DNA of 51,536 nt from Paludibacteraceae bacterium (GTDB lineage: Bacteria; Bacteroidota; Bacteroidia; Bacteroidales; Paludibacteraceae): NCBI GenBank assembly GCA_017525455.1, contig JAFXSS010000011.1, positions 1 through 51,536 on the forward strand. Direction: 5' to 3'. The position numbers were made by a program, and so were the translations under genes. Below are positions 6,881 to 50,875 of the stretch, piece by piece. Each line of letters begins with the position of its first letter. Position 1 is the first letter of the stretch. Below the pieces are notes generated by a model, which worked only from the letters and a program-made list of their open reading frames with translations, did no database searches and was not told the DNA's origin.

Positions 6881-8455
6881 TTACTTTAATATGAGCGCCA
6901 AGTTACCTTGATACAGCGTCTCCGAACCGCCTTTTGTGCGGTACTTGATGTTCTGAACGAGCACCATATCACCACTCTTCAGCTGGCCGATAAGTTTGAG
7001 TTGTGCTGCTGAGAACTTGTTGCCACTCGATTTGCCTGTCTTACGCAGGATATACGTATCAAAGCTTGTAATTTCGAACGGTACTTCGAGCAGACCGTCT
7101 TCGCCGTAACCGATTTCCAGAACAGTGTTCTTGTTCAAGCTCTTACGCGGAGTAGCACTGGAGTTAACCTGCTTGCCGTTGTCAACGAAGTACGGTGACG
7201 GCTGAGGCAGTTTCTGTACTTTGAAGTTCCTTTCGCCCATGGTGGTCATACGTCCGCCCATGTCTGCTTGTACAACTATACGTACGGTTTTTGCTCCTGC
7301 ATTCGGACGCAAGATATAGAACTTGCCCTGACGACGTACGCTGGCACCTGAAACATTAACTTTCAACTGGTTATCGGTCACACCGGGAGCCGATACGACG
7401 TAGCGGTTGTCATAATCCTGATAGATGATGTTCAGGTCTTCGTTCATGACAGATGCAGAGGGTTCACCAACAGTAAACTCTGCCGAGAACGGCATGCTGA
7501 TGGTATCACGACCTTGCTTGTAACGAACAATACCGTTATAGGATTGTAAACCGGAACCGCTGGCTGTGCAACGATATATACCATCCTCGCCCAGTTCAAC
7601 ACCATTGACGAAATAGTCAGGACGTGCAGTCGAGTCGGTCGCAGCCAAAATGATCTGTGCTTCGTACTGGTCGCCACGGATTACATACGAACTCTTAGGA
7701 ATAACGTACGCGCGTATATCGTTTGCGGTAAAGTCGTTAGCGGTAATACGTTGATACAGACGTGACAATGTACGGTTCTCATACGAACGGATATCGTTCT
7801 GGTACTTGGTAAGGATAGCCAAGCAGGCACCTGCCGGCATACCGTCGAAGATAGAAGCCTCCCAAGGAATAGAGTCGCCATCGTTGTTCACACCCTTCTC
7901 TGTACTGAAGATACCGCGGATGATTTGACCGGGCTTACCGTTACGTGCACGCTCGGAGTAATGTTGTACATCCATCAGCAGTTCACGATATTCCTCAATC
8001 TTGTGACGCAGCACCTCGCCGTTAGGCAGACCCGTCTCGGGGTCTGTCAAAACGAGAGCATAAGTACCCGGGTGATCGAAGTCAGAGGTATTGATGATCT
8101 TGCGAGCCAGCGAGTCGTACTGCTCTTCGCCATCCACAAGTTTGGTTACCTCAACTTTGAAGTTCTGAATATAGTTATACAGATCGTCGGAAGCTTTACG
8201 CAACGAGTCGGCCTGCATATACAAGGCTCCTACCTTTGCAGGGTTCTCCTTGTAGGCGCGCTCGAAACGACGGTACTGCATAGCGTTCTGCTCTGCGGTG
8301 TTATCCAGTGTGACGTGCAAACTGGCATCCACCTTGGCAAAGGCATCAAGCACGTTCGTACTTACGTTCAACGCCAACATGGCGGTAAGCACGAGGTACA
8401 TCATACCAATCATTTTTTGTCTCGGGGTTTCCGGACAGTTTTTTGCTCCACCCAT
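6881..8455 (-). CDS. gldM: Type IX secretion motor protein GldM/PorM
   Basis: GldM, with GldL, forms the inner-membrane proton-driven rotary motor that powers T9SS. The 524-residue protein has the diagnostic cytoplasmic start GGAKNCPETPRQKMIGMMYL followed by one transmembrane helix (residues 16-35). The long periplasmic part would hold the D1-D4 domains that cross the periplasm to reach GldK/GldN; the region near 230-330 (SYVIRGDQYEAQIILAA) is the conserved D2/D3 part. Length equals the family norm. Confidence 0.96.
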   Translation of the reverse strand: MGGAKNCPETPRQKMIGMMYLVLTAMLALNVSTNVLDAFAKVDASLHVTLDNTAEQNAMQYRRFERAYKENPAKVGALYMQADSLRKASDDLYNYIQNFKVEVTKLVDGEEQYDSLARKIINTSDFDHPGTYALVLTDPETGLPNGEVLRHKIEEYRELLMDVQHYSERARNGKPGQIIRGIFSTEKGVNNDGDSIPWEASIFDGMPAGACLAILTKYQNDIRSYENRTLSRLYQRITANDFTANDIRAYVIPKSSYVIRGDQYEAQIILAATDSTARPDYFVNGVELGEDGIYRCTASGSGLQSYNGIVRYKQGRDTISMPFSAEFTVGEPSASVMNEDLNIIYQDYDNRYVVSAPGVTDNQLKVNVSGASVRRQGKFYILRPNAGAKTVRIVVQADMGGRMTTMGERNFKVQKLPQPSPYFVDNGKQVNSSATPRKSLNKNTVLEIGYGEDGLLEVPFEITSFDTYILRKTGKSSGNKFSAAQLKLIGQLKSGDMVLVQNIKYRTKGGSETLYQGNLALILK

Positions 8456-18903: not shown

Positions 18904-18935
18904 CAAAGATACAAAAATATTTTGACATTTGCAAA
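18904..18935 (-). promoter_or_regulatory. Promoter of the 986-residue surface protein gene
   Basis: TTTG (18932-18935), a 20-nt spacer and TATCTTTG (18904-18911) on the minus strand. A 12-bp palindrome ACTAAATTTAGT (18871-18882) lies in the leader just after the likely transcription start and might be an operator. Confidence 0.75.
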
Positions 18936-35986: not shown

Positions 35987-36018
35987 CAAAGATACAAAAA
36001 AAATCTCACATTTGCAAA
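35987..36018 (-). promoter_or_regulatory. Promoter of the SusCD locus
   Basis: Minus-strand TTTG (36015-36018), a 20-nt spacer and TATCTTTG (35987-35994), 23 nt before ATG 35964. The -33 region is extended, TTTGCAAATGTG, as at 18932 and 50621. Confidence 0.75.
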
Positions 36019-38553: not shown

Positions 38554-38585
38554 CAAAGATACAACAATAATTTCACTTTTGCAAA
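38554..38585 (-). promoter_or_regulatory. Minus-strand promoter of a divergent pair
   Basis: TTTG (38582-38585), a 20-nt spacer and TATCTTTG (38554-38561) on the minus strand, driving the small ORF at 38524. It lies back to back with the plus-strand promoter 38632-38663. Confidence 0.7.
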
Positions 38586-38631: not shown

Positions 38632-38663
38632 TTTGCAGAAACGGAAAAAAAGTCGTATCTTTG
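38632..38663 (+). promoter_or_regulatory. Plus-strand promoter of the TPR/PD40 gene
   Basis: TTTG (38632-38635), a 20-nt spacer and TATCTTTG (38656-38663). ATG 38688 is 25 nt downstream, so the leader is very short. Confidence 0.75.
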
Positions 38664-43959: not shown

Positions 43960-44769
43960 CTACGAGGCTGTAAGGAACCTGCGGCGAAGCTTATGTACAT
44001 CGTCATGCGACAGGCAGAGTATATCCCTCAAGTAGGCATTCATTCCGCCGAACTCTCGGTCAATAAGGTCGAGCGTGCGGATGAAGTTAGGCGTGCTCAC
44101 TCCCATGAATGCCTGCACCACTTCCATCTCAGCCTGCCCTCCGCCCCGCGCCAGGATATCCGCTTTCAGCCTGTCAACGAGCGGGCGATAAGCATCGTTG
44201 CTGCTGTCGAAATCGCTGATTATCGTCTCGCGGTCGACACCTAATGCAAACAGCAGGAACGCAGCGCCCCAGCCTGTACGGTCTTTGCCCTGAGCGCAAT
44301 GCCAGAGTATGCCACCATCCTCCGGAGCCTCGATGATCAGACGCAGAAACGCGGCGTACTGCAGTTGCGAAAACTCGCTACAGATGAGCGACGAATACAT
44401 ATTCGCAGCCATCTGCTGCACCTCGGGATAGAACGAATAGTTGACAATGTGCCGATCCAGTTCGAAGAATGCCTCTTCGGGTATAGGTTTGCCGGTCTGC
44501 TGCTCGGCACGCATATCGATGGTAGGCAGCAGGTGGTGTTCTACGCCCTCTATCTCGCGATCGGGCTGATGCTGAGCTTCACCCAGCGAGCGGAAGTCGA
44601 AGATGCGGCAGAGGTTGAACTCCTGCCTGAGACGCAGCAAATCGGCATCCGAGGCATCGTGGAGATGTGCGGTCCGCAACAAACGATGCGGACGGACACT
44701 GCGTCCGCCTGAAGCTATCGTGCCACCCAAGTCACGCGCATTGGCTATATTGTCGAATTCCAGAAGCAA
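43960..44769 (-). CDS. Tyrosine-protein phosphatase (Y_phosphatase3 type)
   Basis: The 269-residue protein has the Cys-phosphatase loop HCAQGKDRTGWG with nucleophile Cys158 and Arg164, and the N-terminal NARDLGG signature of the Y_phosphatase3 family. Such enzymes act on phosphotyrosine proteins or phosphoinositides. The start is uncertain: the frame has no ATG, and TTG 44769 gives the best family N-terminus. The stop is TAG. It is last in the signalling cluster, 51 bp after the cytidylate-kinase-like gene. Confidence 0.87.
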   Translation of the reverse strand: MLLEFDNIANARDLGGTIASGGRSVRPHRLLRTAHLHDASDADLLRLRQEFNLCRIFDFRSLGEAQHQPDREIEGVEHHLLPTIDMRAEQQTGKPIPEEAFFELDRHIVNYSFYPEVQQMAANMYSSLICSEFSQLQYAAFLRLIIEAPEDGGILWHCAQGKDRTGWGAAFLLFALGVDRETIISDFDSSNDAYRPLVDRLKADILARGGGQAEMEVVQAFMGVSTPNFIRTLDLIDREFGGMNAYLRDILCLSHDDVHKLRRRFLTAS

Positions 44770-44820
44770 GAGTTGATGAATTGTTTGAGCGCTTCGCTGT
44801 TTGAACTGCGTAGTTGGATA

Positions 44821-45453
44821 TCAGTGGATCTTTTGTTTTACACATTCGGCTATGAAATCCGCTACGGTCTCCGGCTCGAGACCGCTGACATTGAGTACCA
44901 GATCATAGTTGTGTGCCTCATAGCGGCTCTTGCCACTGAAAGAGAGCGTGAAGTTCTCGCGGTCTTCATCGATCTTGCTGATCAGCAGATCGGCACTACC
45001 TTCGTTGATATTCAAGCGGCGTGCTACCTTGTCGCGGCGGAAAGGTTTGTCGGCTATCAGAAAGACCTTGAACGCATTGGGGTTGTTGCGGAAGATATGG
45101 AAACCCGTACGCCCCAGTATGACGCACGATTCCTGTTCTGCCAGCGCTGTGAGGATGCGTTCCTCGTCCTGATAGAGCAATTCGGAAGTTACGTTAGGCA
45201 CATACACCGACTCGTAGTACGGACGGTTAGCCCAGGCTTGTGCCTGCTGGTAGAACTTGGCGAACTCATCCCACCAGGTGAGACGTTTGGCTTTGATGCG
45301 ATCCATCTCTTCCTGCGTGAGGTTATAGCGTTGCTTGAGTTCTTCAAGAAGTTTTTTGTCGTACACTTTTACTCCGAGCCGTTGACCGAGGATATTGGCT
45401 ATCTGCCGTCCTCCGGTACCGAACTCGCGACTGATGGTGATGATATATTTCAT
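44821..45453 (-). CDS. Cytidylate-kinase-like protein
   Basis: A 210-residue P-loop protein starting MKYIITISREFGTGGRQIAN, the variant nucleotide-binding loop of the Cytidylate_kin2 family (residues 8-19), with YDKKLLEEL and a helical lid with FLIADKPFRRDKVARRLN. It is distinct from the housekeeping Cmk. Substrates of this family are not established. It lies between the HD and phosphatase genes, at 47- and 51-bp gaps. Confidence 0.87.
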   Translation of the reverse strand: MKYIITISREFGTGGRQIANILGQRLGVKVYDKKLLEELKQRYNLTQEEMDRIKAKRLTWWDEFAKFYQQAQAWANRPYYESVYVPNVTSELLYQDEERILTALAEQESCVILGRTGFHIFRNNPNAFKVFLIADKPFRRDKVARRLNINEGSADLLISKIDEDRENFTLSFSGKSRYEAHNYDLVLNVSGLEPETVADFIAECVKQKIH

Positions 45454-45500
45454 AGAATTGAAATTTGAAAAGACTATTTGTAAATTGACGACTGAAAGGG

Positions 45501-46082
45501 TTAGTGCTGCCCAAACACCTCGTCAATCAGTCGTACAAACTCGCGATAGGCGAAGGTATCGCTCAGTTCGCTCAGCGAAGCAGCCAAGCCGCGGTAATGC
45601 CACTCGTGGGCAGCTTTGTCCGTTACGTGGAAGATCTGCCAGAGCTCATCGCCCCTGAGCTGATAGTCGCGCCAGATGGCACGCATGTTACTCAGTTTGT
45701 CGCCCATCGCCACGATCTTGGCATCGTGATTGGCAGCTGCGAGCCGGTCAATAGCCGCCTGCTTTCGGTCGTGCCAGCTGTCAGCCTCCGATACGCCCTC
45801 GGTGAACCGGTCGCTCTCAGCGTACACAAGCGATGCTACACGTTCGCCAAAGGCGTCACGCAGTTGCTCGTAGGTAACATCGGTATCCTCGATCGTGTCG
45901 TGCAATGCAGCCGCAGCCAACAACTCCTGGTCGGGCGTGATGGTAGCAACAATCTCCACCGCTTCCATCGGATGAACGATGTACGGAAAACCTTTGCCAC
46001 GACGCTCGGTGTTGTGATGCGCGCCCACAGCGAACACTATCGCGCGGTCGAGCAGGTCGGTATCTATATATTTGTTTGCCAT
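45501..46082 (-). CDS. HD-domain (p)ppGpp hydrolase-like protein (MESH1/SpoT type)
   Basis: The 193-residue protein is a stand-alone HD domain like the hydrolase half of SpoT or MESH1: FPYIVHPMEAVEI (His37), then ALHDTIEDTDVTYEQL with His61-Asp62 and the Glu65-Asp66 pair typical of Mn-dependent alarmone hydrolases, and KIVAMGDKLSNMRA. It likely removes the 3'-pyrophosphate of (p)ppGpp. It lies three genes after SpoIIE and two after a RelA/SpoT synthetase, which fits. A heptamer repeat array sits 15 bp before its start. Confidence 0.85.
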   Translation of the reverse strand: MANKYIDTDLLDRAIVFAVGAHHNTERRGKGFPYIVHPMEAVEIVATITPDQELLAAAALHDTIEDTDVTYEQLRDAFGERVASLVYAESDRFTEGVSEADSWHDRKQAAIDRLAAANHDAKIVAMGDKLSNMRAIWRDYQLRGDELWQIFHVTDKAAHEWHYRGLAASLSELSDTFAYREFVRLIDEVFGQH

Positions 46083-46096
46083 AATAATCTGTCAGC

Positions 46097-46150
46097 GGTT
46101 ACGGGTTACAGGTTACGGGTTATGGGTGATGGGTGATGGGTGATGGGTTA
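46097..46150 (+). repeat. Heptamer array (GGGTTAY), eight units
   Basis: Units on the plus strand run GGTTAC, GGGTTAC, AGGTTAC, GGGTTAT, GGGTGAT three times, then GGGTTA. The final TTA (46148-46150) is the TAA stop of the phosphotransferase gene. The array ends 15 bp before the HD-gene ATG. Confidence 0.9.
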
Positions 46151-47020
46151 TTTTAGTATGGTTTCTTTGAGGACAACGCGGAACTGTGGCATAGGGCAGT
46201 GGGTACAACTCTCGACGAGCAGAGTCTTCAGCCCCGCATAGATGCGCACGGTTTTGTCGATCTCGGCAAGGTCAGCCCCCGGGCCACAATTCTCGATAGG
46301 GCAATCAGGCGAGTGGAAATACTCATCGTCAAACGCACGCCAGAACCTGGCAGCCGTGGCGTTAGACATGTGATATTGTTCCATAGTCCACGACTCATCG
46401 TTGAGCATGCAGCACAGATAAACCATGCCTAAATCAAACATCGGGTAGCCGTAACAGAAGTCGCCCAGGTCGATGAAATAGGGCGTACGCACACCGTCTT
46501 TCTCCACAAATATGCCGTTGGAGAACTGCAGGTCGCCGTGAATGGCCGTATCTGCATCGGGTGCTGCTGCTATGAAGGCACGCAGTTTGTCTTTCTCGTC
46601 GTCGGTGAAGAACGGGTTGTCGCCAAGCCACTTGTACTGCCGCTGTTTGACATCCTCAAACTGCGTGGTATCGACGTGAATATTGTGCAGTTTCAGGCAC
46701 AGTTGTGCAAACTCGCGGGCATACACCTCAGTATGTTCGGGATCGTCACCGCAAGCGCGCGAATAGGATTTCTTGCCGTCCAGACGGCGGAAACGTATAC
46801 CCAGCCGTTCGCCGTCGGTAACCAGGTCACCGGGTTCGGGCGAAGGGATACCCAGTTGATAGACTTTCTTAGCCATCTCGAGTTCCATACGCGCCGAGTC
46901 GAAGTTGCGCAGGTACAACTTCATCATGATCGTAGGATCGGTCTTGTGGTTATAACTTGCTCCGTTGGCTCCTTCGCCGGTACGGATATAATCGTTGAGA
47001 TCGATGAGTGTAGGTTCCAT
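46148..47020 (-). CDS. APH-type phosphotransferase (TIGR02172-like)
   Basis: The 290-residue protein has the aminoglycoside/choline-kinase fold: catalytic loop AIHGDLQFSNGIFVE and metal-binding FIDLGDFCYGYPMFDLG. It fits the TIGR02172-like family of putative small-molecule kinases. The acceptor is unknown. It starts 10 bp after the RelA/SpoT synthetase stop, so the two are probably translated together. Its TAA stop is also the first unit of a heptamer repeat. Confidence 0.85.
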   Translation of the reverse strand: MEPTLIDLNDYIRTGEGANGASYNHKTDPTIMMKLYLRNFDSARMELEMAKKVYQLGIPSPEPGDLVTDGERLGIRFRRLDGKKSYSRACGDDPEHTEVYAREFAQLCLKLHNIHVDTTQFEDVKQRQYKWLGDNPFFTDDEKDKLRAFIAAAPDADTAIHGDLQFSNGIFVEKDGVRTPYFIDLGDFCYGYPMFDLGMVYLCCMLNDESWTMEQYHMSNATAARFWRAFDDEYFHSPDCPIENCGPGADLAEIDKTVRIYAGLKTLLVESCTHCPMPQFRVVLKETILK

Positions 47021-47029
47021 AGTGATGCG

Positions 47030-48091
47030 CTATTTTATGTTTTGCATAAACGGCAAATGCTTAGCCTGGTCGTATGTCAGTTCGGCGAGTGAAGCGTTCT
47101 GCGAGTTATGTCCGTTCAGAGCGTCAAACATCCTCTCCAAGCCTATTTTGCCGCCACCGGTCGAGAGGATACAAACGATGCATATATTCTGCAGTCCGAT
47201 GGCAGAAGAAATGATATCCAGATCGGTGTTCCCCAACTGATGCCTTGCGAGCAGGTAAGCATCCTCCTCGCAACGCTTGATGAGCCTGTCAACATCGCCC
47301 AGTGTGTTGCACTTAAGTGCAGACAGCACTTTCAAGTACGGGGCAAACGGCGTATCCTGTATCTCAGCCTGATTGATGGCTGCTATACGTTTGTTGAGCG
47401 CCTCGAGTGTACCCAGTTGGAGATAACTACGGAACGTATCGCCATCGAGCAGCACATCGTCGAGTTTGCCGTTCTGCACCAGCGTTTGCATACGCCGACG
47501 GTAATCCGTCAGTTCAGCACGTATGCGGCTAAACTCGTCGTCTGCCATCTCGAGTATACCTGCCAGACGGTTCATGCGACGCATGTACTCACGGGGAATC
47601 TCAATGCCGGACTTGTAACCTGTGTCATGGTTGATAGCCGCCCAAGCGTGCTGCAGCGTTGTGCGCAGTTGCAGTTCGAAGCGGTATTCGCAACCCGGCA
47701 ACCGACAGATGTAATGCAGCGAATTGTAGCCAAAACTGTCGAGTTGGTGCAGTTTGCGCTTGTCAACGCTGTTCTCCCAATCGATGTCAAACAGTTTCTC
47801 GGCAATGGCAGCTATACGGTCTACATCGTCGGTATAGAACGTCACAACACGTGCACCGACCAAGTCGGTTATGTCGCTAAGTGTGGCGTACTTGGCGCCT
47901 TTCAGTGCCAGTTTGCCGCTGAGCGAGCCTTCGGTCTTCACGCGCGCCTCAAGAGTAGTGACCACAAGTCCGCTGCGGAGCAGGGCTTTTTGCAGTTTGG
48001 CTATGACGCTGTCCTTCAGCTTCTCGAGCGTGGGTAGCGCATCGCGGTACTCCTCGAGTATGAGTTGGCAGTGCAAATCCAGATTATCCAT
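47030..48091 (-). CDS. RelA/SpoT-family (p)ppGpp synthetase
   Basis: The 353-residue protein has the synthetase domain without HD, TGS or ACT domains. Motifs include SDITDLVGARVV (Asp76), LDSFGYNSLHYICRLPG, FELQLRTTLQHAWAAINHD (Glu139) and YKSG. A 190-residue helical C-terminal extension makes it longer than typical small alarmone synthetases. It would transfer pyrophosphate from ATP to GDP or GTP. Its ATG overlaps the STAS stop by one base (TAATG), indicating coupling. Confidence 0.92.
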   Translation of the reverse strand: MDNLDLHCQLILEEYRDALPTLEKLKDSVIAKLQKALLRSGLVVTTLEARVKTEGSLSGKLALKGAKYATLSDITDLVGARVVTFYTDDVDRIAAIAEKLFDIDWENSVDKRKLHQLDSFGYNSLHYICRLPGCEYRFELQLRTTLQHAWAAINHDTGYKSGIEIPREYMRRMNRLAGILEMADDEFSRIRAELTDYRRRMQTLVQNGKLDDVLLDGDTFRSYLQLGTLEALNKRIAAINQAEIQDTPFAPYLKVLSALKCNTLGDVDRLIKRCEEDAYLLARHQLGNTDLDIISSAIGLQNICIVCILSTGGGKIGLERMFDALNGHNSQNASLAELTYDQAKHLPFMQNIK

Positions 48092-48393
48092 TACTGTATG
48101 TCAAATAAGCTGATGAAGCCGGTCATCATAAACACCTGACGGATGTCGGCGTTGATGTCCTTGACAATAACTTTCGAACCGTTAGCAGCAGCCTGCTTGC
48201 GTATGCTCAGGAAGATACGCAGTCCGGAGGAAGAGATGTACTCCAACTCCGAGCAGTCGAGAATGATCTGTTGTTCTGAGGCTTCCAGCAGAGGTTTGAT
48301 ATCCTCGGCTGTCGTCACGGATGCGGCTGTGTCCAGCCGACCGATGAACTTGGCAATGAGTTGATTGCCGGTGGTAGAGATTTCGGTGGTCAT
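48091..48393 (-). CDS. STAS-domain anti-sigma-factor antagonist-like protein
   Basis: A 100-residue SpoIIAA/RsbV-type STAS protein. The phosphorylation-site region IILDCSELEYISSSGLRIFLSI (Ser54-56) is intact. It should switch between phosphorylated and free forms under the kinase and phosphatase of the SpoIIE-fusion gene, 66 bp upstream. Its stop overlaps the start of the RelA/SpoT gene. Confidence 0.95.
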   Translation of the reverse strand: MTTEISTTGNQLIAKFIGRLDTAASVTTAEDIKPLLEASEQQIILDCSELEYISSSGLRIFLSIRKQAAANGSKVIVKDINADIRQVFMMTGFISLFDIQ

Positions 48394-48426
48394 ATTTTGG
48401 ATTTATGATTTTAAATTTGAAATATA

Positions 48427-48473
48427 GGGGTTGCGGGTTATGGGTTATGGGTTATGGGTTACCGGTTACGGGG
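48427..48473 (+). repeat. Heptamer array (GGGTTAY) overlapping the SpoIIE gene end
   Basis: Plus-strand units run TTGCGGG, TTATGGG three times, TTACCGG, TTACGGG. The TTA at 48459-48461 is the TAA stop of the SpoIIE-fusion gene, and its last residues (PRNR) are coded by repeat units. The array fills most of the 65-bp gap to the STAS gene. Confidence 0.9.
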
Positions 48474-50543
48474 AACATATTTGACGAGGGTAAGTATGTT
48501 CTTGTCACCCAGTCGCTCGTAGTGAATCTCATCCATAAGTTGTCGAACAAGATGTATACCCAGTCCGCCTATCGGTCGTTCGTCGGCAGAGAGCGAGGTA
48601 TCGACTTCGTCTTTCTGCGTCGGGTCGAACGGTATACCGGTGTCGGAAACGGTGAAGATCATCCTTCGGCAGTTGTCGTTCTCGTCCTCGGTGTACTCGA
48701 CGAACACCTTGCCGTCGTTGCGTCCCGGGTAAGCATAGAGCATGACGTTGCTGACGATCTCCTCCAGAGCCAGATTGACCGGCATATTAAGTTCGGCAGG
48801 CACGACGAGTTGCTCAACCCACTCGGCGAGTGTAGGAATCTGCTGTATATCGTTGCGCATGACGATAGCGGGATGCTGGTAACGTATGGCAAGCATCGTC
48901 AGGTCATCGCTTTGCGGTGCATCGCCCACGAACTGTCCGACGCTTGACTGCAAAGCCTCGACAATCTCCTGCGGACGCAGTCGTGCTGTTTGCGCCAAGG
49001 CGTCATGCATACGTTGCTCACCATACTGAGCGTGGTCTTTGTTCTCCGCCTCTGTCAGTCCGTCGGTATACAAGAACAATGTCTCACCACGCTGCAATTG
49101 CAACGACTGTGCTGTGTACTCAAATCCCGGCATAACGCCTATCGGCAGATTAGGCAGCACCTCTATATCCCGGATGCTGAACCTAGGACTACCAAGCAGC
49201 AGCGGTGCGTTGTGCCCTGCATTGCAGTACATCAGTTCACCTGTCTCAAGATCGAGCACGCCCAAGAACAATGTGATGAACATATTCTGGTCGTTCTGCT
49301 CTGCTATGGTGTTATTGATTTCCGCACAGATCAGATTAGGTTGCTCGGAGTGTGCCGTTGTACTGCGGAACAGCGAGCGAATGGTAGCCATCACCAGCGA
49401 TGCCGGCACACCTTTGCCGCTCACGTCGCCTACGCAGAAAAACAGTTTGTTGTGCCGCACGTAGAAGTCGTACAGGTCGCCACCAATCTCCTTGGCCGGC
49501 TGCACCATACCGAATATATTCAAGTCCGGACGGTCGGCAAACGGCGGAAAGACCTTGGGCAGCATGGCGTTCTGAATGGTTTGTGCAATCTCCAGTTCGC
49601 CCTCCATGCGCTCCTGCTGCGTGTGCAAAGCTACCAGGCTGCGGATGTTTTTCGCGCTGCGGTACATGATGAATATGAGTAGCGCGAGACTGACGAGCAT
49701 CATGATGGTAACGTACAGACCTATCTTGTTGAGGTCGGCAAACAGTATATCCTCGGGGATGATGACCGTCAGGTGCCAGCCAGTAGCATCGATAGTCTCG
49801 TCGAGCACCAGGTATTTGCGTCCGGGAATAGTGTCCGGTTTGCCAACTATATCCGTGCCTGAGGGCGATGCGATGGTGTAATAACTATCCTTGTATACCT
49901 GCAGGTATTGCGACACGCGGCTCAGTCTGTACAGTGAGAAATCGATGCACGCTACTGCCACAACCTTTCCCTGAGGATCGTAGACGGGGTACGAGCAACT
50001 GACAACCATCTTCTGCGCCCCCACCTCATCCATGTACGGTTCTGACCACCATGCGCTATCGCGCGTCAGTCCGCTATGGAACCACTCGGCTTGCAGATAG
50101 TCGTGCGATGCGCTACCGATCTGCCGGGTGTAGATCTTAGCCGGCACACTATCGGCAGCTGGAATGCGGCTACTGCAGATCTCATACCATCGTCCCTGCT
50201 GGGGATAATAGTCGGCAATGAATGCCACGCCTGCGCTTTCGACATTAGGCAACGTCTCGAGCAATGTCTGCGTACAGCCATAGATAGCGCGCGGTTCGCT
50301 CAGGTTATGTTCAGCCATCATTGCGAGCATCTTAGCAGCGGCTTCCATCTCGGCAGTGGCTACGTTGATCTCCAGTTCGGCAGCCCTCAGTTCGGCTTTG
50401 GCACGATACACGGCTTGGTTGCGGATAACCGCACGGCTATAGAAATACTGAATGCATGCTATTGTCTCCAGCGCCACGGCGGCTACCAGCAGCAGCCATA
50501 AGCCTGTATGCGGACGGCGTTGTTTGGATTGTTTGGTTTCCAT
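48459..50543 (-). CDS. Cache sensor, SpoIIE phosphatase and RsbW-like kinase fusion
   Basis: The 694-residue membrane protein has a helix (about 13-34), a periplasmic dCache-like sensor (about 40-285, VVSCSYPVYDPQGKVVAVACIDFSLYRLS) and a second helix (about 290-310). The SpoIIE PP2C domain follows (about 335-550: GGDLYDFYVRHNKLFFCVGDVSGKGVPA, NAGHNAPLLL, LFLYTDGLTEAEN, DDLTML). The C-terminal HATPase domain (about 565-690) has NLALEEIVSNVMLYAYP, DTGIPFDPT and GGLGIHLVRQLMD. It joins an RsbU/RsbP-type phosphatase to an RsbW-type kinase, opposing activities on one STAS protein. ATG 50543 (METKQSKQ) was preferred over a longer frame at 50579. It has a perfect promoter. Confidence 0.93.
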   Translation of the reverse strand: METKQSKQRRPHTGLWLLLVAAVALETIACIQYFYSRAVIRNQAVYRAKAELRAAELEINVATAEMEAAAKMLAMMAEHNLSEPRAIYGCTQTLLETLPNVESAGVAFIADYYPQQGRWYEICSSRIPAADSVPAKIYTRQIGSASHDYLQAEWFHSGLTRDSAWWSEPYMDEVGAQKMVVSCSYPVYDPQGKVVAVACIDFSLYRLSRVSQYLQVYKDSYYTIASPSGTDIVGKPDTIPGRKYLVLDETIDATGWHLTVIIPEDILFADLNKIGLYVTIMMLVSLALLIFIMYRSAKNIRSLVALHTQQERMEGELEIAQTIQNAMLPKVFPPFADRPDLNIFGMVQPAKEIGGDLYDFYVRHNKLFFCVGDVSGKGVPASLVMATIRSLFRSTTAHSEQPNLICAEINNTIAEQNDQNMFITLFLGVLDLETGELMYCNAGHNAPLLLGSPRFSIRDIEVLPNLPIGVMPGFEYTAQSLQLQRGETLFLYTDGLTEAENKDHAQYGEQRMHDALAQTARLRPQEIVEALQSSVGQFVGDAPQSDDLTMLAIRYQHPAIVMRNDIQQIPTLAEWVEQLVVPAELNMPVNLALEEIVSNVMLYAYPGRNDGKVFVEYTEDENDNCRRMIFTVSDTGIPFDPTQKDEVDTSLSADERPIGGLGIHLVRQLMDEIHYERLGDKNILTLVKYVPRNR

Positions 50544-50592
50544 AAATGTATTGCAGAAGTATGTTTTTTGTCGGCACACACGGATTCGCTCG

Positions 50593-50624
50593 CAAAGTTA
50601 CAAAAAAAAATGCACATTTGCAAA
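50593..50624 (-). promoter_or_regulatory. Promoter of the signalling cluster
   Basis: Minus-strand TTTG (50621-50624), a 20-nt spacer and TAACTTTG (50593-50600). The -33 side reads TTTGCAAATGTG, as in two other promoters here. Confidence 0.75.
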
Positions 50625-50843: not shown

Positions 50844-50875
50844 TTTGTATAATTCAAAAAAAATTCGTACCTTTG
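50844..50875 (+). promoter_or_regulatory. Promoter of the AraC-family gene
   Basis: Plus-strand TTTG (50844-50847), a 20-nt spacer and TACCTTTG (50868-50875). ATG 50898 is 23 nt downstream. Confidence 0.75.

Follow-up and report, generated by a model that had tools for sequence, protein, structure and literature searches.

A predicted Cache-SpoIIE-HATPase and STAS switch module linked to small alarmone synthetase-like and hydrolase-like proteins in Paludibacteraceae and other Bacteroidales

Gene content and motifs of the cluster

The stretch of DNA analysed here, referred to as the window, spans 51,536 nucleotides of contig JAFXSS010000011.1 from a Paludibacteraceae bacterium (assembly GCA_017525455.1), a 2.15-Mb metagenome-assembled genome that is 85.6% complete. 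Between positions 43960 and 50543 it carries seven open reading frames (ORFs), all on the minus strand, which encode in order a SpoIIE fusion protein, a STAS protein, a small alarmone synthetase-like protein (SYN), an APH-fold kinase-like protein (APH), an HD-domain hydrolase-like protein (HD), a cytidylate-kinase-like protein (CMPK) and a tyrosine phosphatase (Table 1). This is the order that an initial annotation had proposed from the sequence. Pfam and NCBIfam models assign to the products of genes 1 to 7, respectively, MCP-like_PDC_1 (Cache) with SpoIIE and HATPase_c_2; STAS; RelA_SpoT; APH; HD_4; Cytidylate_kin2; and Y_phosphatase3. The genes are as tightly packed as first described, with gaps computed from the coordinates running from -1 to 65 bp (SpoIIE-STAS 65, SYN-APH 9, APH-HD 65, HD-CMPK 47 and CMPK-phosphatase 51 bp) and with one base shared by STAS and SYN in the TAATG overlap already noticed (gTAATGg).

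Conservation of motif residues was followed across 80 named loci, the best 80 of 325 confirmed relatives, at positions that we chose from known catalytic motifs (for SYN, those of Rel and RelQ). In gene 1, the SpoIIE domain scores 176.9 bits (cut-off 25) and the HATPase_c_2 domain 72.7 bits (cut-off 27.4), and the RsbW equivalog models stay below their cut-offs. The Cache domain sits between two hydrophobic segments (residues 12-35 and 266-298), in keeping with the sensor that had been postulated; an alternative GTG start at 50579 would extend the protein to 706 aa. Eighteen of 19 motif positions of gene 1 are invariant in 75/75 loci and the remaining one, a glycine, is kept in 74/75; the metal-binding aspartate positions of the PP2C domain and the N-box residues E595 and N599 of the HATPase domain are kept in all 75. 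The STAS protein contains the motif YISSSGLR, whose S55, aligned with S58 of SpoIIAA, is the candidate phosphoserine. Both S54 and S55 are kept in 77/77 loci with data, as well as in 5/5 STAS-bearing loci from other families. Judged by domain content, gene 1 and STAS form a complete predicted switch set, in which gene 1 unites the sensor with the phosphatase and the kinase and STAS is the substrate; the PP2C, RsbW-like HATPase and STAS domains named in the initial annotation are all present with intact motifs. Outside the window, contig C151 of the same genome (locus L178) bears another SpoIIE-HATPase gene, truncated where the contig ends, and then a STAS gene. The two directly precede a 1952-aa ORF resembling a nonribosomal peptide synthetase (condensation, AMP-binding and carrier domains), and L178 is another switch with a different neighbour.

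SYN matches the RelA_SpoT model with 60.0 bits (cut-off 27) and possesses 19/19 of the chosen catalytic motif positions in 80/80 loci. It lacks the regulatory domains of long RelA/SpoT homologue (RSH) proteins and ends in a C-terminal extension of ~155 aa without family match. Among solved structures, its closest relatives (E 1e-16 to 1e-12) are GTP pyrophosphokinases like YjbM and YwaC. The RelA/SpoT chains 7ztb and 9erv, which we take to be CapRel, are matched only with E 0.035, in a set of solved chains that may or may not include FaRel2. From its motifs and relatives, the product of SYN is inferred to be (p)ppGpp; (p)ppApp or tRNA chemistry may be the alternative. SYN is an extra enzyme, because the host genome encodes two further RelA_SpoT proteins (long open frames of 664 and 504 codons); in Bacteroides thetaiotaomicron, the control of (p)ppGpp is reported to rely on two enzymes (PMC10746209).

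In HD, the motif residues are invariant in 74/74 loci with the exception of one proline (72/74), and the closest solved chains are 7qoe, 7qoc and 4yf1, followed by Rel and Mesh1 chains. The predicted alarmone metabolism is split as had been claimed, between separate synthetase-like and single-domain HD hydrolase-like proteins with intact motifs. The APH kinase scores 221.6 bits against TIGR02172, just below the cut-off of 228.2, and its motif residues are kept in all loci with data. A search of its profile against solved structures returned only engineered RecA chains; no stretch of these matches was significant alone and they were read as spurious.

A single promoter pattern of the Bacteroidota type precedes gene 1 (Table 1), and the next exact match on the same strand lies at 38554-38585, with none elsewhere within or just after the module. 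A single transcript covering the whole module is therefore plausible. The pattern is strongly over-represented in the window (seven matches against 0.19 expected in shuffled sequence), the other matches being at 587-618, 18904-18935, 35987-36018, 38554-38585, 38632-38663 and 50844-50875; a scan for sigma-70 promoters and terminators gave nothing above chance. A DUF7935 gene follows the module 55 bp downstream. Short repeats resembling ACCCATAACCC/ACCCATCACCC occur in the intergenic runs 48399-48460 (SpoIIE-STAS) and 46083-46150 (APH-HD).

Table 1. Features of the module in the window and fusion ORFs at related loci.
Feature	Position	Strand	Description
Gene 1, sensor phosphatase-kinase	48459..50543	-	694 aa from ATG; hydrophobic-Cache-hydrophobic-PP2C (SpoIIE)-HATPase_c_2 (RsbW-like)
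Gene 2, single-domain STAS protein	48091..48393	-	100 aa; TIGR00377 64.1 bits (cut-off 53.45)
Gene 3, SYN, small alarmone synthetase-like	47030..48091	-	353 aa; RelA_SpoT at residues 50-162; first base shared with the end of gene 2 (TAATG)
Gene 4, APH, APH-fold kinase-like	46148..47020	-	290 aa; TIGR02172 type; HGDxxxxN and DxGD motifs
Gene 5, HD, small alarmone hydrolase-like	45501..46082	-	193 aa; single HD domain; HDTIEDT, GDKLSNM
Gene 6, CMPK, cytidylate-kinase-like	44821..45453	-	Cytidylate_kin2; accessory; 12/80 loci, including distant matches that lie outside the operon
Gene 7, tyrosine/dual-specificity phosphatase	43960..44769	-	Y_phosphatase3; loop HCAQGKDRTG; TTG start; 67/80 loci
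Promoter pattern, Bacteroidota-type	50593..50624	-	TTTG-N20-TAACTTTG; ends 49 bp before the gene 1 ATG; presumed consensus
HD-APH fusion ORFs	L164:7534-8943; L167:7630-9066		Single ORFs of 469 aa and 478 aa
STAS-APH single-protein fusions	L173:6744-7937; L189:7925-9121; L190:8745-9941; L191:8448-9641		Three Bacteroidales families; beside SpoIIE-HATPase genes

Conservation of the module and a sister system

Among 61 genomes of the genus (G000-G060), SYN was found in 39. HD is present in 38 of these 39 genomes and in 0/22 of those lacking SYN (Fisher p 1e-15, a value that ignores the relatedness of the genomes); in the sole exception, G012, the contig ends inside SYN. A SpoIIE match occurs in 39/39 SYN-bearing and in 6/22 other genomes. 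The genus genomes and the named loci are not independent sets, because 15 of 20 same-genus stretches compared duplicate the DNA of a named locus. The named relatives are labelled Bacteroidales, Paludibacteraceae or Bacteroidaceae, and ruminant gut is the source of most of those for which a source is stated.

Across the 80 named loci, where many gene absences are contig ends, STAS is present in 78, SpoIIE in 75, and APH and HD in 74 each; 67 loci have the tyrosine phosphatase and 12 the cytidylate kinase. The most frequent order (51/80) is that of the window minus the cytidylate kinase; the latter, listed in the initial annotation as part of the module, does lie in the window, but its low occurrence rules it out as a core member. 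The downstream DUF7935 and DUF6048 genes are likewise ruled out, having been found in 0/80 named loci and 0/20 same-genus stretches. The tightest junction is that between STAS and SYN, with a median of -1 bp (exactly -1 in 39/76 measured loci and at most 20 bp in 68/76); the other junctions have median gaps of 11.5 to 26 bp. Several loci have a reduced or rearranged gene set. L057 and L134 read STAS-SYN-APH-HD with no SpoIIE match upstream; in L078 and L082, HD begins 4 bp after SYN with no APH between them and STAS is present; L061 and L128 consist of SpoIIE-STAS-SYN followed by unrelated genes, with neither APH nor HD alongside; and in L091 and L100, SYN-APH-HD is preceded by CMPK and STAS and followed by another SpoIIE, which shares 42% identity with the SpoIIE of the window. 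Since the pair stays in loci that lack SpoIIE, APH or HD, STAS-SYN is the most persistent pair of the module, though not without exception.

Beyond the genus, a close SYN (E below 1e-100) was found in nine of 393 Bacteroidales genomes, and HD adjoins it in 9/9; one other genome has an HD match without a close SYN, and two have a distant SYN only, without HD. Families f2, f133 and f135 keep all five core functions (SpoIIE/HATPase, STAS, SYN, APH and HD) in other orders: SYN-HD-APH-SpoIIE/HATPase-STAS in L163; HATPase, Cache-HAMP-SpoIIE, STAS, SYN and an HD-APH fusion in L164-L166; and SpoIIE, HATPase (a tblastn match), STAS, SYN and an HD-APH fusion in L167. HD and APH, described at first as separate genes and indeed separate in the window, are thus one protein in families f133 and f135, where all four loci have them as a single ORF (open frames of 476 codons in L165 and 474 in L166; Table 1). 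The key residues also hold in seven loci of other families, with exceptions: D640 of gene 1 (N in 4/5), S56 of STAS (Q in 4/5), N154 of SYN (6/7), G186 of APH (A in 2/5), and R28 and P38 of HD (2/7 and 3/7, respectively). Of 395 genomes sampled across the phylum, only nine, among them that of the window, match SYN with E 1e-20 or better, and no other module gene was matched within 8-18 kb around the eight relatives; a lone HD gene in G753 has no SYN in the 3.5 kb examined. Seventeen plasmid records match SYN at 28-41% identity, none of them over 80% or more of the query, and in the two inspected neither STAS nor SpoIIE is annotated. A distant relative was also matched in a virus.

Chance clustering is ruled out by the co-occurrence of HD and SYN within the genus, by the 80 named loci and by the other families, and we regard the module as real with near certainty. 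The gene set, whose conservation outside this genome had been the check proposed for it, holds at each of these three levels.

The neighbourhoods of related loci show several further features. Anion transporters resembling the DASS family lie beside modules in L091 (13761-15557) and L189 (13327-15123), both below cut-off, and in L094 (13756-15552), by resemblance of its start; a Na/Pi cotransporter with PhoU domains stands beside the module of L164 (12913-14619). Such anion transporters perhaps hint at the ligand that is sensed. In L168, a cupin gene (7829-8182) directly follows a SYN-HD pair that has no STAS (family f155, discussed below). The number of SpoIIE-domain matches per genome reaches 20 in G820, 16 in G680 and 11 in G765, against 1-3 in the other seven genomes searched.

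Genomes without a close SYN revealed a sister system. In G049, a member of the genus, a 397-aa ORF joins STAS to APH, and after it come SpoIIE-HATPase, a tyrosine phosphatase and, between these two, a free STAS. The fusion has full-length relatives in 3/393 Bacteroidales genomes (families f19 and f30), and none was matched in plasmids. The distance from the fusion to the SpoIIE-HATPase gene is 45 bp in L173 (G049), 2 bp in L191, 147 bp in L190 and 228 bp in L189, and a free STAS is present in L173 and L191. The SpoIIE of L091, which belongs to a SYN operon, is 57-58% identical to the SpoIIE proteins of L191 and L189, whereas its identity to the SpoIIE of the window is 42%; the DASS-like transporters next to L091 and L189 are 70% identical. 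The sister system and this kinship therefore reveal two blocks, SpoIIE-HATPase with STAS and APH on the one hand and SYN with HD on the other, which occur both separately and combined. APH connects the two: one branch has it fused to STAS, another to HD.

Candidate targets of the STAS switch

The question of which protein is controlled by STAS admits several answers. We give about an even chance to a partner switch that would gate SYN, which the initial annotation had named, beside the hydrolase, as a possible target; the switch would dispense with a sigma factor and have a private pair of alarmone enzymes as its output. The STAS-SYN junction, tightest and most persistent of the module, argues for it, as do the co-occurrence of SYN and HD, the retention of the gene set in other families, the search that found no SigB- or SigF-like sigma factor and the precedent of SiaC and SiaD (see below). 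Several observations weigh against it: STAS lies apart from SYN in L163 and at the operon end, not adjoining SYN, in L094; in L110, the 9 kb upstream of SYN-APH-HD contain neither STAS nor SpoIIE, and G029, a genome with the same contig, has SpoIIE genes elsewhere; the two loci of family f155 (L168, L169) possess SYN-HD only, and none of STAS, SpoIIE and APH lies within 18 kb of the pair, though their genomes, too, carry SpoIIE genes elsewhere; part of the C-terminal extension of SYN is also found in an orphan relative of another order; and the four STAS-APH genomes are without a close SYN. Covariation of distances was computed from 57 of the 80 operons for six genes and from 63 for five (the rest lacked a gene or 85% coverage). 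STAS distances correlate with those of PP2C (rho 0.67-0.70), less with the C-terminal (0.30-0.33) and catalytic (0.03-0.17) parts of SYN, and not with APH (-0.06 to 0.01). When 10-12 divergent operons are left out, the values become 0.28-0.36 for PP2C, 0.35-0.37 and 0.24-0.37 for the two parts of SYN and 0.09-0.20 for APH, with Cache highest at 0.39-0.47. The contrasts rest on these divergent operons and fade without them, and distance covariation does not single out a partner of STAS.

Because STAS and an APH-type kinase are one protein in the sister system, where SYN is lacking, the kinase, which the initial annotation only listed, is a serious rival target: the switch would act on the TIGR02172-like APH, and SYN-HD would be a parallel or downstream arm coupled through it. 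All four STAS-APH ORFs lie near a SpoIIE-HATPase gene, the HD-APH ORFs of families f133 and f135 would tie the kinase to the hydrolase, and the SpoIIE of L091, together with its transporter neighbour, leans towards the STAS-APH systems. We nevertheless find this reading unlikely, if worth keeping in mind. L078 and L082 retain STAS, SYN and HD with no APH gene between the latter two, L061 and L128 keep SpoIIE-STAS-SYN with no APH alongside, and the STAS distances do not track those of APH with or without the divergent operons. Moreover, identity between the APH of the window and the APH domains of the fusions reaches only 26-28%, and the STAS-APH fusions score 107.5 and 120.9 bits against TIGR02172 (cut-off 228.2), compared with 218.5 for the APH of L163 and 230.3 for the fusion of L164. 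Gating of SYN and action on APH can both be true.

Two other explanations appear to us less probable still. SYN could be an enzyme of the toxic small alarmone synthetase (toxSAS) kind, performing tRNA CCA pyrophosphorylation or making (p)ppApp, which would be released by the switch and reversed by HD. It has a QHAWA motif around H148, as found in non-RelQ RSH proteins, and it matches the candidate defence model PDC-S33 of PADLOC (E 6.5e-13). A distant relative (36% identity; L196, NZ_OY725946.1 12360-13433) resides among phage genes on a plasmid of Bacteroides finegoldii rich in phage structural genes, and small alarmone hydrolases (SAHs) are described as serving as toxSAS antidotes (PMC9765508). 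The solved enzymes closest to SYN are nevertheless the YjbM/YwaC-type GTP pyrophosphokinases, far ahead of 7ztb and 9erv, and the Pfam and NCBIfam scans found no antitoxin-like family among the seven proteins; we judge the toxSAS-like reading improbable. A classical switch whose sigma factor is encoded elsewhere, the enzyme genes being merely co-transcribed, would account for the domain set, as PP2C, RsbW-like HATPase and STAS are those of the SigB and SigF switches and the TIGR00377 match is above cut-off (the RsbW models score below theirs). The enzyme genes, however, stay linked to STAS in loci of different gene order and, in one case, by fusion. No sigma factor lies within the seven-gene cluster, as the initial annotation had pointed out, and a search for the sigma partner elsewhere that could have explained the module returned one Sigma70_r3 protein and nothing like SigB or SigF in the 85.6%-complete genome (extracytoplasmic function sigma factors were not searched). 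A SigB- or SigF-like target is on these grounds very improbable.

Relation to known switches and a proposed mechanism

The nearest parallels are switches in which a STAS-type protein controls a diguanylate cyclase, namely SiaC-SiaD, HsbA-HsbD and BgrV-BgrR; unphosphorylated SiaC is reported to bind and activate SiaD (PMC8457831). Like SiaABCD of Pseudomonas aeruginosa and the two other systems, as far as that account describes them, the module would run from phosphatase and kinase through a STAS-type protein to an enzyme of a nucleotide messenger without a sigma factor, and its STAS is genetically tied to that enzyme, as the short STAS-SYN distances indicate. Unlike in SiaABCD, the enzyme is of the RelA_SpoT type with a private hydrolase and not a diguanylate cyclase, phosphatase and kinase form one Cache receptor, the switch protein is STAS and not DUF1987, and the set also includes an APH-type kinase and a tyrosine phosphatase; the SiaA model scores 57.5 bits (cut-off 700). 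With RsbU-RsbV-RsbW and SpoIIE-SpoIIAA-SpoIIAB the module shares three domain types with intact motifs, and it differs from them in the fusion of phosphatase and kinase and in that no SigB- or SigF-like sigma factor was found. Since neither a diguanylate cyclase nor DUF1987 is among the families of the seven proteins, and no sigma factor was found, the module appears to work like a second-messenger partner switch while being a member of neither the SiaABCD nor the sigma type.

The enzymes, in turn, resemble well-known types without coinciding with them. SYN shares the RelA_SpoT synthetase domain with RelP and RelQ (YwaC and YjbM), its best solved relatives, from which it differs in its low score against the YjbM model (51.7 bits, cut-off 320), in its C-terminal extension and in its linkage to STAS and a hydrolase. 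HD resembles the Mesh1-like SAHs in being a single HD domain with RSH hydrolase motifs, but is tied to a dedicated synthetase and switch and, in two families, fused to an APH-type kinase. As in toxSAS-SAH modules (FaRel) and in CapRel, synthetase and hydrolase adjoin; in contrast to these, the module has no antitoxin-like gene and possesses a phosphorylation switch, and similarity to the CapRel chains is weak. Among the papers listed in literature searches, none describes, by title and start of abstract, a module of SpoIIE, STAS and alarmone synthetase or of STAS-APH. Neither ppGpp nor SpoT occurs in the main text of a STAS review (PMC8256260), and a survey of RSH proteins (PMC3153485) does not mention STAS. 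In the literature searched, the module has no described counterpart, in agreement with the view in the initial annotation that no system of such composition had been characterised.

By analogy with the switches whose STAS-type protein controls a diguanylate cyclase, STAS would gate SYN, and HD would be the off-arm. An extracytoplasmic ligand would bind the Cache domain of gene 1 and alter the relative activity of its PP2C phosphatase and RsbW-like kinase, and this would set the phosphorylation of Ser55 of STAS through a presumed phosphotransfer. Unphosphorylated STAS, freed from the kinase domain, would then bind SYN, perhaps at the C-terminal extension, and switch it; HD would reset the signal, and the APH-type kinase may be a second STAS-linked effector working with the hydrolase. 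The full proposal, in which one membrane-bound Cache-phosphatase-kinase turns an external ligand into an alarmone level via STAS directly gating SYN, with APH as a second and interchangeable effector, would amount to a so far undescribed class of signalling system; it is a tentative one, to which we give somewhat less than an even chance.

Alarmone synthesis is usually seen as an answer to internal starvation cues. The module suggests that, in some rumen bacteria, an external cue can set the starvation signal without the usual sigma factor. The TIGR02172 family, for which we know of no other function from the material surveyed here, gains a testable role, that of a kinase connected with both STAS and an alarmone hydrolase. 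If the gating of SYN by STAS is true, this would be, to our knowledge, the first alarmone synthesis under partner-switch control; it would carry the principle of partner switching beyond sigma factors and cyclic-di-GMP, into the field of alarmones, and provide gut and rumen Bacteroidales with a direct route from an outside cue to the control of growth.

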